64,000 bases of DNA from an uncultured Clostridia bacterium (GTDB lineage: Bacteria > Bacillota > Clostridia > Oscillospirales > Ruminococcaceae). The DNA is taken from assembly GCA_947627905.1 (NCBI GenBank), contig CANQXX010000002.1:1-64000 (forward strand). The letters run 5' to 3'. The translations under genes and the position numbers were made by a program. Shown in pieces: positions 18,310 to 42,169 of the stretch. Every line of letters starts with the position of its first letter. Position 1 is the stretch's first letter. Below the pieces are notes generated by a model. The model saw only the letters and a program-made list of their open reading frames with translations, searched no databases and was not told where the DNA came from.

Positions 18310-18687
18310 ATCTGACGATCAAAATAAAAGAGGTCTAACCTCCGGATCGCCGAATAATATCGGTGATCGGGACGATAGACCTCGTGGTGCCACCCGTTTT
18401 TACGGAATTAAAAAATTCCGCCTCATTGGATACAGACTGATGCGGAACTTCAACATTTTTGTTAAAACAGTTCAAGTACGCCGCTAATGCAGTTATACCC
18501 TATCCACTAACGCAGGAAATCGGCGCGGACTACTTGGGAAATTAATATCACCCGTTTGCCGTTGCTTCTCACAAACCCATTCACAGATACCGTTATGATC
18601 CGCACTCACACCAACGGCGGATTCTCTGATACATCAGCATATCTGCTACTTACTTTTGATCGTCGAATTTAAAAATATTAAATTACG
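18310..18687 (-). promoter_or_regulatory. T-box leader (probably tRNA-Trp responsive) of the trp operon
   Basis: Minus strand has the T-box core GGGTGGCACCACG (rc of 18383-18395), a following terminator GAGGTCTA...TAGACCTCTTTTA, and a candidate TGG specifier in GTGAATGGGTT; directly upstream of trpE. Confidence 0.9.
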
Positions 18688-24821: not shown

Positions 24822-25039
24822 TTATCTTCTAAAATAACCGCCTTGCCGCCATGTGAAGCATAAAACCCGCACTCAGCAGGTGGGCAACAGCCCATCAGTT
24901 TCACGCTCCCTGCGTCCGTTGTTCCCCACATCTAATGGGGCGGGAGGTCTGCAATCCGCTGACGGAGACTGAATCCCTTTATTTATGTGTTGGATTATAA
25001 AATCACACTTTATCGGACAAGGCAGAAATTCATTTTCTG
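24822..25039 (-). ncRNA. ssrS: Probable 6S RNA
   Basis: About 218 nt between a TTGATT-17-TATAAT promoter (25046-25074, minus) and a strong terminator; no ORF. Closing stem GCCTTG(t)CCG...GTGTGA / TTCACAT..CGGCAAGGC, apical CCCCATtagATGTGGGG, and 3'-side small hairpins GGGCtgttGCCC and ACCTGCtgagtGCGGGT, as in Firmicute 6S RNAs. Confidence 0.62.
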
Positions 25040-25496: not shown

Positions 25497-25642
25497 GATG
25501 TATCCTCCTTAAAATTCAGAATGGGTGTCCGGCTTTCCGACACCCAACTATTTAATTATATAATATACGGAAATGATTGTCAAGATAAAAAATCAACAAA
25601 AATTCTGCACAAATACTGTGGAGTATTTTTATCAAAAAACTA

Positions 25643-25671
25643 TTGACATTGCACAATATCTGTGATATATT
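25643..25671 (+). promoter_or_regulatory. Strong sigma-A promoter of the repeat-array transcript
   Basis: TTGACA (25643-25648), 17-nt spacer, TATATT (25666-25671). Confidence 0.75.
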
Positions 25672-25710
25672 ATACTCAAGGACAAAGAAAAGATACAGAG
25701 GTCAAATTAA

Positions 25711-25811
25711 GGAAGCCGGTTTCAGAAGATCGGTTACTGCCGACGATGGTCAGGCACAACCCTTTGACAAGTCTTGTGAAGCTGCTGAGTAGGACGATGT
25801 TCCGAGCTTCC
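25711..25811 (+). other. Predicted RNA domain closed by a 9-bp stem
   Basis: GGAAGCCGG (25711-25719) pairs with CCGaGCTTCC (25802-25811), single bulged A. Confidence 0.5.
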
Positions 25812-25958
25812 GGATCGTTCCTGTAACTTTAAAGTTCTTTATCCGAAAGAAACGGATCCGATGAAAATCCGTGATTTCCACACGGTACATTCAGTCTGAG
25901 AATGGATCTGACGGGTTCGGAAATCTGTAAATTTTTCTTGGAAAGGGTGGCGAGTCCA

Positions 25959-26027
25959 ATGGAGGATGTAATTGAACAGCAGTTTACTCAGGCAGTCCGC
26001 AGCGACTCGTTTACAGCTTTGCTTTAA
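25959..26027 (+). CDS. Candidate 22-aa small ORF in the array transcript
   Basis: gggtggcgagtccaATGGAGGATG...: MEDVIEQQFTQAVRSDSFTALL*; its start region resembles the array element (GAGTCCAATGG). Confidence 0.35.
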   Translation: MEDVIEQQFTQAVRSDSFTALL

Positions 26028-26314
26028 GAAAAATTGTGTGGGGAGTATAAATGTAAGCGTCTTTAAGACCTCACTCCTGAATTAAGCGATTAGCAATTAA
26101 ATATCTTGAAGTATATAATGATAACGAGCCGCAGTTTTAGCAGATCATAGCTGAATTTGCGGTATTTTTATACCCTCAGGCTTGATATACAGTGCATCGA
26201 CGGTCTGCCGCCATGAATGTCCCGAATGGGCTTTACATAAAATGCTGTATGTTTTGATTTGAGGATTTTTTATCTTCATTGTCAGAACGGGTCACCAGTA
26301 AGAGGTGATGTCCT

Positions 26315-26356
26315 ATGAGAAAACTTAATATAGGTATCAGATACGTTATGAATTGA
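26315..26356 (+). CDS. Candidate micro-ORF MRKLNIGIRYVMN
   Basis: SD agaggtga; stop 7 nt before GGAGTGAG element. Confidence 0.35.
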   Translation: MRKLNIGIRYVMN

Positions 26357-26424
26357 TGTGATTGGAGTGAGACCACCTGACAGGTTAATTTCTTCCTGAT
26401 ATTGAATTTTAAGAAGGGATGCAT

Positions 26425-26466
26425 ATGAGGTATTTTGAATATGCGTATCACGATCTGAATATCTGA
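26425..26466 (+). CDS. Candidate micro-ORF MRYFEYAYHDLNI
   Basis: SD aagaaggga; stop 13 nt before next element. Confidence 0.35.
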   Translation: MRYFEYAYHDLNI

Positions 26467-26570
26467 ATGAATTTTGAAAGAGGTGAGTCCGACAGGACGT
26501 GCATAACGGTTTTGACCGATACGGAAAAAATCTATCGGGTGTTTCCCGTTAAGAATTGAGTGATCTTCAA

Positions 26571-26606
26571 ATGGTAATGAGAAAGGCTTTTAACAGAAAA
26601 ATCTGA
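26571..26606 (+). CDS. Candidate micro-ORF MVMRKAFNRKI
   Basis: Stop 7 nt before GGAGTGAG element at 26614; weak SD. Confidence 0.28.
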   Translation: MVMRKAFNRKI

Positions 26607-26687
26607 TAAAGCAGGAGTGAGTCCAATGGCATAGTTTGCGGCTTCAATGCCTTAATGAATTTACAATTCCAAAAGGAGTCGGTTTAT

Positions 26688-26729
26688 ATGATCTGTTCAA
26701 TAACTGTACTGAAGGAATTTGATTTTTAA
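26688..26729 (+). CDS. Candidate micro-ORF MICSITVLKEFDF
   Basis: SD aaaaggag; TAA abuts GGAGTGAG element at 26730. Confidence 0.35.
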   Translation: MICSITVLKEFDF

Positions 26730-26792
26730 GGAGTGAGTCCAATGGCATAGTCTTATTCTCTTGATGAATATTTCCGAAGGAGCTGTTGCTTT

Positions 26793-26825
26793 ATGCGCAG
26801 AAAATTTTACAGTAAGAAATATTGA
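26793..26825 (+). CDS. Candidate micro-ORF MRRKFYSKKY
   Basis: SD gaaggag; stop 7 nt before element at 26833. Confidence 0.35.
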   Translation: MRRKFYSKKY

Positions 26826-26901
26826 TTTTATGGGAGTGAGTCCAATGGCATAAGTACAGATGTTCCGCTTTATCGTTTAATTCTGAAAGGAAGCGGTGTC
26901 T

Positions 26902-26934
26902 ATGAAAAATGTTCGGAGTTATTTGAAAATCTGA
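26902..26934 (+). CDS. Candidate micro-ORF MKNVRSYLKI
   Basis: SD aaagga; stop 6 nt before element at 26941. Confidence 0.35.
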   Translation: MKNVRSYLKI

Positions 26935-27001
26935 AAGATCGGAGTGAGACCACCAGAACATTTAGTTGTGCTGCAAAGCCATATTTAATTAAAATAGATT
27001 G

Positions 27002-27033
27002 ATCCGCAGGATGTTGCTCCTGCGGATTTTTGA
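27002..27033 (+). terminator. Intrinsic terminator of the array transcript
   Basis: ATCCGCAGGatgttgctCCTGCGGATTTTT. Confidence 0.85.
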
Positions 27034-27050
27034 TTTATATGCAATTTGTT

Positions 27051-27079
27051 TTGACTATTTCTGCGTTACTGCATATAAT
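27051..27079 (+). promoter_or_regulatory. asnB promoter
   Basis: TTGACT-17-TATAAT between the array terminator and asnB. Confidence 0.75.
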
Positions 27080-27112
27080 ATTACCGAAATAAATTTTTTG
27101 GAGGAATTTATT

Positions 27113-28954
27113 ATGTGCGCTATTGCAGGGCAAATTTTTCCCGCCGGAATAAAGGCGGAAAAATTCCGCGGAACATATGAAAAAATGTACCGTACAATGA
27201 CCCGCCGCGGTCCGGATCAGAACGGCTCTTTTATAGATGAAAACGCCGCTCTTATCCATGCAAGACTTTCCGTAGTCGATCCGGAAAACGGTTTGCAGCC
27301 TATGGAACTGCATATCGGTGAAAAACATTTTATACTTATTTACAACGGCGAGATCTATAACGCTTCAGAACTTAAAAATGAACTTTCTGCCCTTGGACAT
27401 GATTTTACAACACATTCTGATACTGAAGTCCTGCTCCATGCTTATGCAGAATGGGGCGAAGAATGTACCGGACATCTCAACGGCATTTTTGCTTTTGCCG
27501 TATGGGAAAAGCATAACGGACGCATCTTTTTTGCACGCGACAGAATGGGCGTGAAGCCGTTCTTTTACGCAGTCTGCAATAACAGCTTCATTTTTGCTTC
27601 CGAAATAAAAACTTTGCTTGCACATCCGTTTTTAAGACCTGAGCTTGACCGTGCCGGTCTTATGCAGATAATGCTGTTAGGTCCGGGACGTATCCCCGGT
27701 GACGGCGTTTTCAAGGATATAAAAGAGCTTCTTCCCGGTGAACAGGGATACTTCTATTCCAAAAATTCCGGACTTGAAAAAAAAATTTACTGGCAGCTTG
27801 AAGATAAGGAGCATACCGATAATTTTGAACAGACCGTCGAAAAAGTCAGATTTCTTGTGACGGATTCGATAGAACGGCAGCTCGTATCGGACGTTCCGGT
27901 ATGTACATTTCTGTCGGGAGGATTGGATTCAAGCATAATCTCAGCCGTTGCCGATAAACATTTTACCGAAAAAGGAGAACGCCTTAAAACCGTTTCGGTA
28001 GCCTATAAGGATAACGAAAAATATTTCAGGGCAAGCAAATTCCAGCCAAACAGCGACGAAAACTTTATCAGGATAATGAATGAAAATTTAAATGCGGAAC
28101 ATATGCTTGTCCTTATTGATACTCCCGAGCTTGCATCGGCTCTTTATGAAGCTGTGGACGCGCGCGATCTTCCCGGAATGGCTGACGTGGATTCGTCCCT
28201 GCTGCTGTTCTGCAAGGAGATAAAAAAAGTCGCTACAGTTGCGCTTTCCGGCGAATGTGCCGACGAGATATTCGGCGGCTATCCTTGGTATAGGGATAAA
28301 ACTATCCGGGAAAGAGAGGGTTTCCCATGGGCACAGTCTACAGCATGGAGAGCAGGATTTTTCCGCCCGGAATTTCTTGAAGGTACAGATCCGGTGAAAT
28401 ATGTAGATCACTATTACAGAAAAACCGTTGATGAAAGTTCGATCCTTCCCGGTACAGACAAAACCGAAGCCCGCATGAAGCAGATGATGAACCTGAATGT
28501 AAAATGGTTCATGCAGACGCTTCTTGACCGCAAGGACAGAATGAGTATGTACAGCAGTCTTGAAGTGCGCGTGCCGTTCTGTGACCACAGGATAGCGGAA
28601 TATCTTTATACCGTTCCGTGGGATTTCAAGGATCATAACGGCTGCGAAAAGGGACTGCTCCGTGAAGCGATGAAAGGACTTCTCCCCGAAGAGGTCTTGT
28701 GGCGGAAGAAAAGTCCATATCCAAAAACGCATAATCCCTCGTATATGAAAGCTGTTTCGGAGGAGCTTAGAAAAATAATTTCCGATCCTGATTCTCCTCT
28801 TTTGTCACTCGTGCGGAAAGAAGCTCTGGAAGAACTTCTTGTTTCGGAAAATGCTGCTCCGTGGTACGGTCAGTTAATGAATATCCCCCAGACGATAGCG
28901 TATTTTCTTCAGCTGAATTATTGGCTCGGGAAATACAATGTACAGATCGTATGA
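27113..28954 (+). CDS. asnB: Asparagine synthase (glutamine-hydrolysing)
   Basis: MCAIAGQI (catalytic Cys2), RGPDQNG, YNGEIYN, SGGLDSSI; start set at 27113 after ggagg. Confidence 0.95.
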   Translation: MCAIAGQIFPAGIKAEKFRGTYEKMYRTMTRRGPDQNGSFIDENAALIHARLSVVDPENGLQPMELHIGEKHFILIYNGEIYNASELKNELSALGHDFTTHSDTEVLLHAYAEWGEECTGHLNGIFAFAVWEKHNGRIFFARDRMGVKPFFYAVCNNSFIFASEIKTLLAHPFLRPELDRAGLMQIMLLGPGRIPGDGVFKDIKELLPGEQGYFYSKNSGLEKKIYWQLEDKEHTDNFEQTVEKVRFLVTDSIERQLVSDVPVCTFLSGGLDSSIISAVADKHFTEKGERLKTVSVAYKDNEKYFRASKFQPNSDENFIRIMNENLNAEHMLVLIDTPELASALYEAVDARDLPGMADVDSSLLLFCKEIKKVATVALSGECADEIFGGYPWYRDKTIREREGFPWAQSTAWRAGFFRPEFLEGTDPVKYVDHYYRKTVDESSILPGTDKTEARMKQMMNLNVKWFMQTLLDRKDRMSMYSSLEVRVPFCDHRIAEYLYTVPWDFKDHNGCEKGLLREAMKGLLPEEVLWRKKSPYPKTHNPSYMKAVSEELRKIISDPDSPLLSLVRKEALEELLVSENAAPWYGQLMNIPQTIAYFLQLNYWLGKYNVQIV

Positions 28955-41995: not shown

Positions 41996-42023
41996 TTTCT
42001 GCCGTACAAATTGAATAATATGT

Positions 42024-42150
42024 TTCAGGGCGAGGTGCAATTCCTCACCGGCGGTAATGGGACGGCAGTCCTTAGTCCGCGAGCGGATAGCGATATCCGC
42101 CGATCTGGTGCGATCCCAGAACCGACGGTACAGTCCGGATGAAAGAAACA
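42024..42150 (+). promoter_or_regulatory. FMN riboswitch (RFN element)
   Basis: TTTCAGGGCGAGGTGCAATTCCTCACCGGCGGTAAT...AGTCCGCGAGCG...GATCTGGTGCGATCCCAGAACCGACGGTACAGTCCGGATGAAAGAAAC. Confidence 0.97.
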
Positions 42151-42169
42151 ACACACATTTCAGTGCATT

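Follow-up and report, generated by a model that had tools for sequence, protein, structure and literature searches.

Why would a bacterial RNA offer the ribosome several strong Shine-Dalgarno (SD) sequences in a row, each leading into a reading frame of two codons? This question is raised by exact repeats of GGAGTGAGTCCAATGGCATA(G/A) at 26614, 26730, and 26833 on the plus strand of a 64-kb window (i.e., the whole stretch of DNA analysed here). Each repeat reads GGAG-8 nt-ATG-GCA-TAG/TAA, as the initial annotation of this DNA had noted and as we confirm. Two-codon minigenes are known singly from phage lambda and a toxin leader and have mostly served as laboratory tools for drop-off, and our literature searches returned no description of such arrays or of any conserved chromosomal RNA composed of two-codon minigenes. 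Judging from the comparison of relatives described below, we consider it rather probable that the locus is a stand-alone RNA gene of tandem minigenes that engage ribosomes nonproductively at several sites.

Organization and distribution of the locus

The repeats sit in a 1.4-kb transcription unit on the plus strand (approximately 25643-27035), of which the span originally highlighted (26614-26853) is only a part. The unit begins with a promoter of the type TTGACA-17-TATATT with a TG before the -10 element (25643-25671, plus strand) that is strongly conserved together with about 40 nt upstream, and almost every syntenic array has TTGAC..TAT..T close to its start. It ends at an intrinsic terminator with the stem GATCCGCAGGA...TCCTGCGGATT followed by a T run (27001-27028, plus strand). 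There is no ORF of at least 80 aa between 25496 and 26999, and no protein gene lies between the array and the terminator, though tiny ORFs do follow the minigenes at a distance. The next gene is asnB, which has a promoter-like site of its own. As far as the sequence tells, the unit is a stand-alone RNA gene with its own promoter and terminator. Rfam covariance models gave zero matches at gathering score across 25500-27150, and we therefore reject membership in a known RNA family. TTGCACAAA recurs both ahead of the promoter and inside it (25600-25690) and may be the site of a regulator. The leader before ORF1 (25676-25940) is conserved in only part of the genus, varies in length by some 170 nt between species, and may be structured.

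When relatives were searched at the DNA level, the locus turned up in all but one of the 21 genomes of the genus (20 of 21). Orthologs of the unit occur in at least 15 genera within the family, and in nearly every case they diverge from a DUF1292 gene (assigned by Pfam for the neighbor in the window and found beside the array in most genera by tblastn). Beyond this gene lies a 6S RNA gene (24831-25031, minus strand), and the same order is seen in genera g3 and g88. Outside the family, the two order-level matches (G530 and G406) each consist of one isolated box and no array, and among the class-level genomes sampled from beyond the family no array was found. Plasmid sequences and viral contigs gave no match to the array, so plasmid-borne or viral spread is rejected. 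The named records are gut metagenome-assembled genomes (MAGs) that bear the labels Ruminococcus sp., Oscillospiraceae, or uncultured Clostridia, and their hosts are herbivores, among them rabbit, water deer, and goat.

Boxes and minigenes of the array

The 3 minigenes in the window share the sequence GGAGTGAGTCCA-ATG-GCA (fMet-Ala) and differ only in their stop, which is TAG in minigenes 1 (26614-26634) and 2 (26730-26750) and TAA in minigene 3 (26833-26853; all on the plus strand). The underlying box GGAGTGAG occurs 5 times in the 64-kb window, with every copy inside the array. Three copies carry ATG-GCA-stop, and the other 2 (at 26364 and 26941) carry ACCACC instead. The first of these GGAGTGAGACCACC boxes (26364-26377, plus strand) keeps its SD and never has a start codon, and the second (26941-26954, plus strand) is the terminal box of the array and is likewise startless. 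A further box without start codon, GGTGAGTCC (26482-26498, plus strand), runs into a hairpin GTCC-GACA-GGAC. These sister boxes with an SD and no start had been absent from the initial annotation, as had the 5 to 7 ORFs of 10 to 26 aa between the boxes and the existence of a stand-alone gene throughout the family.

Under a Markov null, 3 sites of the form GGAG-N6-10-[AG]TG-NNN-stop within 25643-27040 are unexpected (P = 2e-4), and the whole window contains 4 such sites on the plus strand and 0 on the minus strand. Elsewhere in the same genome, the box-like matches C2:80049 and C27:5622 are single sites with 1 mismatch each. The duplex of the boxes with the 16S tail was calculated at about -13 to -14 kcal/mol, compared to -9.6 on average across 21 gene starts of the window, using the textbook Firmicutes tail that may differ from the host's own and with bulged pairs included in the duplexes of about -13 kcal/mol. 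The predicted local fold has the GGAG of several boxes partly paired (unpaired probability of 0.01-0.38, background 0.44), so access to the boxes may be regulated or poor. Conservation of the box extends past the requirements of an SD (GTGAG.CC), which could mean that there is another binder.

Selection for a start followed by a stop

Among the boxes with an ATG in the genus (52 in total), codon 3 is without exception a stop (TAA 31, TAG 18, TGA 3), and codon 2 is GCA in 47 of them, TCA and GCT in 2 each, and GTA in 1. An extra box before ORF A, present in part of the genus, leads into MY, MH, MQ, MG, MK, MKG, or MEK, each followed by a stop. The box is also retained in other genera, where the dipeptide varies (MK, MY, MR, MT, ME, MQ, MD, MN); in g88, minigenes for MY, MR, and MT with their stops are kept in three species. 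AUG-stop and three-codon versions of the minigenes occur as well, and ATG and GTG starts are swapped at one orthologous place (GTGGCATAA in L107 versus ATGGCATAA in L108), with another GTG start in L115 (GTGGAATAA). It had been proposed at the outset to ask whether the ATG is lost in homologous arrays that keep the rest of the motif. At the minigene positions, across the genus and other genera, an ATG or GTG with a stop 1 to 3 codons on is kept, and it is the middle codon that changes. The suggestion that tandem SD-led minimal ORFs could capture or pause ribosomes thus gains support from the comparison of relatives.

Across the family, the pattern GTGAGTCCVATGNNNTRR has matches in 66 of 396 genomes and 27 of 126 genera, with only a few matches for a reversed-pattern control. 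The corresponding pattern without any stop, GGAGTGAGTCCVATG, retrieves 43 sites outside the genus, of which 27 have a stop at codon 3, 3 at codon 2, and 3 at codon 4, whereas 10 show no stop within the stretch read. Because related species inflate raw counts, we counted distinct sites per genus, in genomes that are largely MAGs: outside the genus there are 29 distinct sites, of which 20 reach a stop by codon 4 (P ~1e-11, or 3e-8 under an AT-rich null). Arrays located by their DUF1292 neighbor have 62 ORFs of at most 4 codons after boxes, including 17 outside the search pattern, besides 19 leader-type ORFs (5-30 aa), 21 CC-type startless boxes, and 18 other followers; no long ORF follows a box in these arrays. 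Since the minigenes retain their position, start, and early stop and the dipeptide is free, selection acts on "start, then stop at once". This is the signature expected if initiation and prompt termination matter rather than the product.

Short ORFs between the boxes

The array also contains short ORFs on the plus strand. ORF1 (MEDVIEQQFTQAVRSDSFTALL; 25959-26027), located after a GGCGAGTCC box, shows in-frame indels of 3 nt and a pN/pS of 0.73, and an ORF1-type leader ORF of 16 to 27 aa with ATG or GTG start is found in most genera. ORFs A to F, of 10 to 15 aa, each have a good SD and each end just before a box in the genus alignment. Among these are ORF A (MRKLNIGIRYVMN; 26315-26356; frame kept with a 3-nt indel; pN/pS 0.82), ORF C (MVMRKAFNRKI; 26571-26606; constant length of 11 aa; pN/pS 0.93), ORF D (MICSITVLKEFDF; 26688-26729; stop abutting the next GGAG; pN/pS 0.75), ORF E (MRRKFYSKKY; 26793-26825; pN/pS 0.87), and ORF F (MKNVRSYLKI; 26902-26934; pN/pS 0.98). 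These 5 ORFs and ORF1 stay open with mostly in-frame indels, and their peptides drift. ORF B (MRYFEYAYHDLNI; 26425-26466) is under purifying selection for its peptide (pN/pS 0.24), with differences of 0.25/0.08/0.36 at the 3 codon positions, i.e., nearly fixed second positions, and indels of 3 and 9 nt. The HD-N-I/L end of its peptide EYAYHDLNI is kept in g46 and g3. The constraint on ORF B as a peptide implies that the RNA is more than a ribosome sink.

The array could be viewed as an mRNA for tiny peptides (ORF1 and A to F, 10-26 aa) in which boxes and minigenes are intercistronic devices for re-loading or insulation. The ATGactTAA minigene in the txe leader, which raises txe translation in cis (PMC8708949), would be a precedent, and besides the constraint on ORF B, the stops adjoining boxes (as for ORF D) and the alternation of SD-led ORFs with boxes throughout the genus and in g46 agree with such an arrangement. 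We nevertheless consider this explanation unlikely, given that the pN/pS values of the remaining ORFs lie at 0.73-0.98 and that no peptide family is common to the genera, except perhaps the end of ORF B and ORF1. Moreover, the arrays of g117 are composed of five tandem minigenes plus ORF1, and SD-led peptide ORFs are almost lacking between these minigenes. The drift of the peptides and the g117 arrays thus disfavor a pure peptide operon, and functional peptides as the sole reason for the array are rejected, with ORF B alone clearly constrained. Because the g117 array survives with almost no peptide ORFs, the core common to the arrays seems to consist of the minigenes and ORF1, and the minigenes are more than helpers of the peptides.

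Proposed function and relation to known systems

That a whole family shares the array suggests that this RNA serves to capture or park ribosomes and not to encode protein. We propose that each box (GGAGTGAGTCC plus one base) would bind the 30S subunit through its SD and that translation would start at the ATG or GTG and end after 1 to 3 codons with the ribosome still over the SD. Because termination would come while the ribosome still covers the SD, ribosomes would idle at several places per RNA by starting, terminating, and restarting or dropping off, and the startless sister boxes would bind ribosomes without starting. Termination over the SD in minigenes favors both re-initiation without leaving and peptidyl-tRNA drop-off (PMC8708949, PMC8012679). 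Regarding the purpose of ribosome capture, our first but uncertain choice is that the RNA would load or titrate initiating ribosomes in trans, a role as ribosome sponge that fits because there is no gene downstream. As a second choice, likewise uncertain, the parked ribosomes might work in cis by shielding the RNA from RNases and setting the translation of ORF1 and ORF B, or as a roadblock. If ribosomes are caught on this RNA, bacteria would possess a device made of RNA that works on the pool of ribosomes or on their traffic, and the natural variation in codon, stop, and box across about 15 genera is ready material for testing.

Like the array boxes, the bar minigenes of phage lambda (AUG-AUA-UAA) are SD-led two-codon ORFs that end at once in a stop, and they tie up translation via peptidyl-tRNA drop-off when Pth is short (PMC8012679). 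Unlike these, the array is chromosomal and tandem (as many as five minigenes in addition to startless boxes) on a dedicated conserved transcript, and it has a longer conserved box as well as varied second codons, mostly GCA with AAA, TAC, AGA, and others elsewhere instead of the AUA (fMet-Ile) of bar. The array minigenes also resemble mg2 of the axe-txe leader and the two-codon ORFs in toxin-antitoxin operons, which are ATG-NNN-stop with an SD and have no amino-acid preference (PMC8708949). However, mg2 is single and serves the downstream toxin gene in cis, with minigenes of this type ending a few codons ahead of the protein gene whose translation they raise, whereas in the array no protein gene lies between the minigenes and the terminator.

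The startless boxes with their strong SD recall the stab-SD of Gram-positive bacteria, a strong SD outside normal translation that stabilizes RNAs even without a start codon (PMC3997798). Boxes that park ribosomes only for stability, on a structured RNA that regulates via its conserved hairpins, are somewhat less likely still than a peptide mRNA. The SD retained at CC-type boxes, the compensatory changes in the hairpins, and the presence of an RNase J homolog would all agree with such stabilization, yet stab-SD is a single 5' element of ordinary mRNAs and requires neither AUG nor stop, while the array has several internal boxes in excess of what 5' protection needs, most of them with a start and near-immediate stop, both of which are selected at many boxes. 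Boxes that bind CsrA or another RNA-binding protein, with incidental start and stop codons, would match the repeated GGA motifs of CsrB-type sponge RNAs and the presence of CsrA in 12/12 congeners of the first relatives sample, but this very improbable explanation leaves the conserved start, variable codon, and any stop unaccounted for, and a CsrA sponge is rejected because 13 of 24 genomes with the array yielded no CsrA, among them the window's own (G000) and all sampled g88 and g117, most of them at least 95% complete.

Returning to ribosome capture, it is possible, though we hold this only tentatively, that the array represents a new class of regulatory RNA, conserved across a family of gut Clostridia, in which tandem start-X-stop minigenes sequester initiating ribosomes. 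With the same reserve, this RNA may be seen as a ribosome sponge and the translational counterpart of the adjacent 6S RNA. 6S RNA ties up RNA polymerase, and a ribosome-tying RNA would be its conceptual analog in tying up a core machine; the two have no sequence or structural relation and share adjacency only.

Conserved hairpins of the transcript

The initial annotation had also listed a start codon immediately followed by a stop at 26042-26056. An ATGTAA after GGGGAG is indeed present (at 26051), but it is probably not a functional start-stop ORF because the stop is lost (ATGCAA) in the relatives G018, G001, G010, and G003 and the ATG in G015, and because it sits in a hairpin, GGGAGT...ACTCC (26040-26077, plus strand), with nearly invariant arms. 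A conserved start-stop ORF at 26051 is therefore rejected. The 3' arm of this hairpin, CTCACTCC, is complementary to the first 8 nt of the GGAGTGAG boxes, and its TCACTCC is kept in nearly all relatives. We speculate that this arm may be an anti-box in cis and could form a switch. The adjoining segment (26078-26174, plus strand) comprises a GAUUA-loop stem with compensatory changes and then a CCGCA...TGCGG hairpin, and it is part of our RNA model R1. Two other RNA elements in the window, a T-box leader (18365-18672, minus strand) and an FMN riboswitch (42017-42154, plus strand), are both ordinary.
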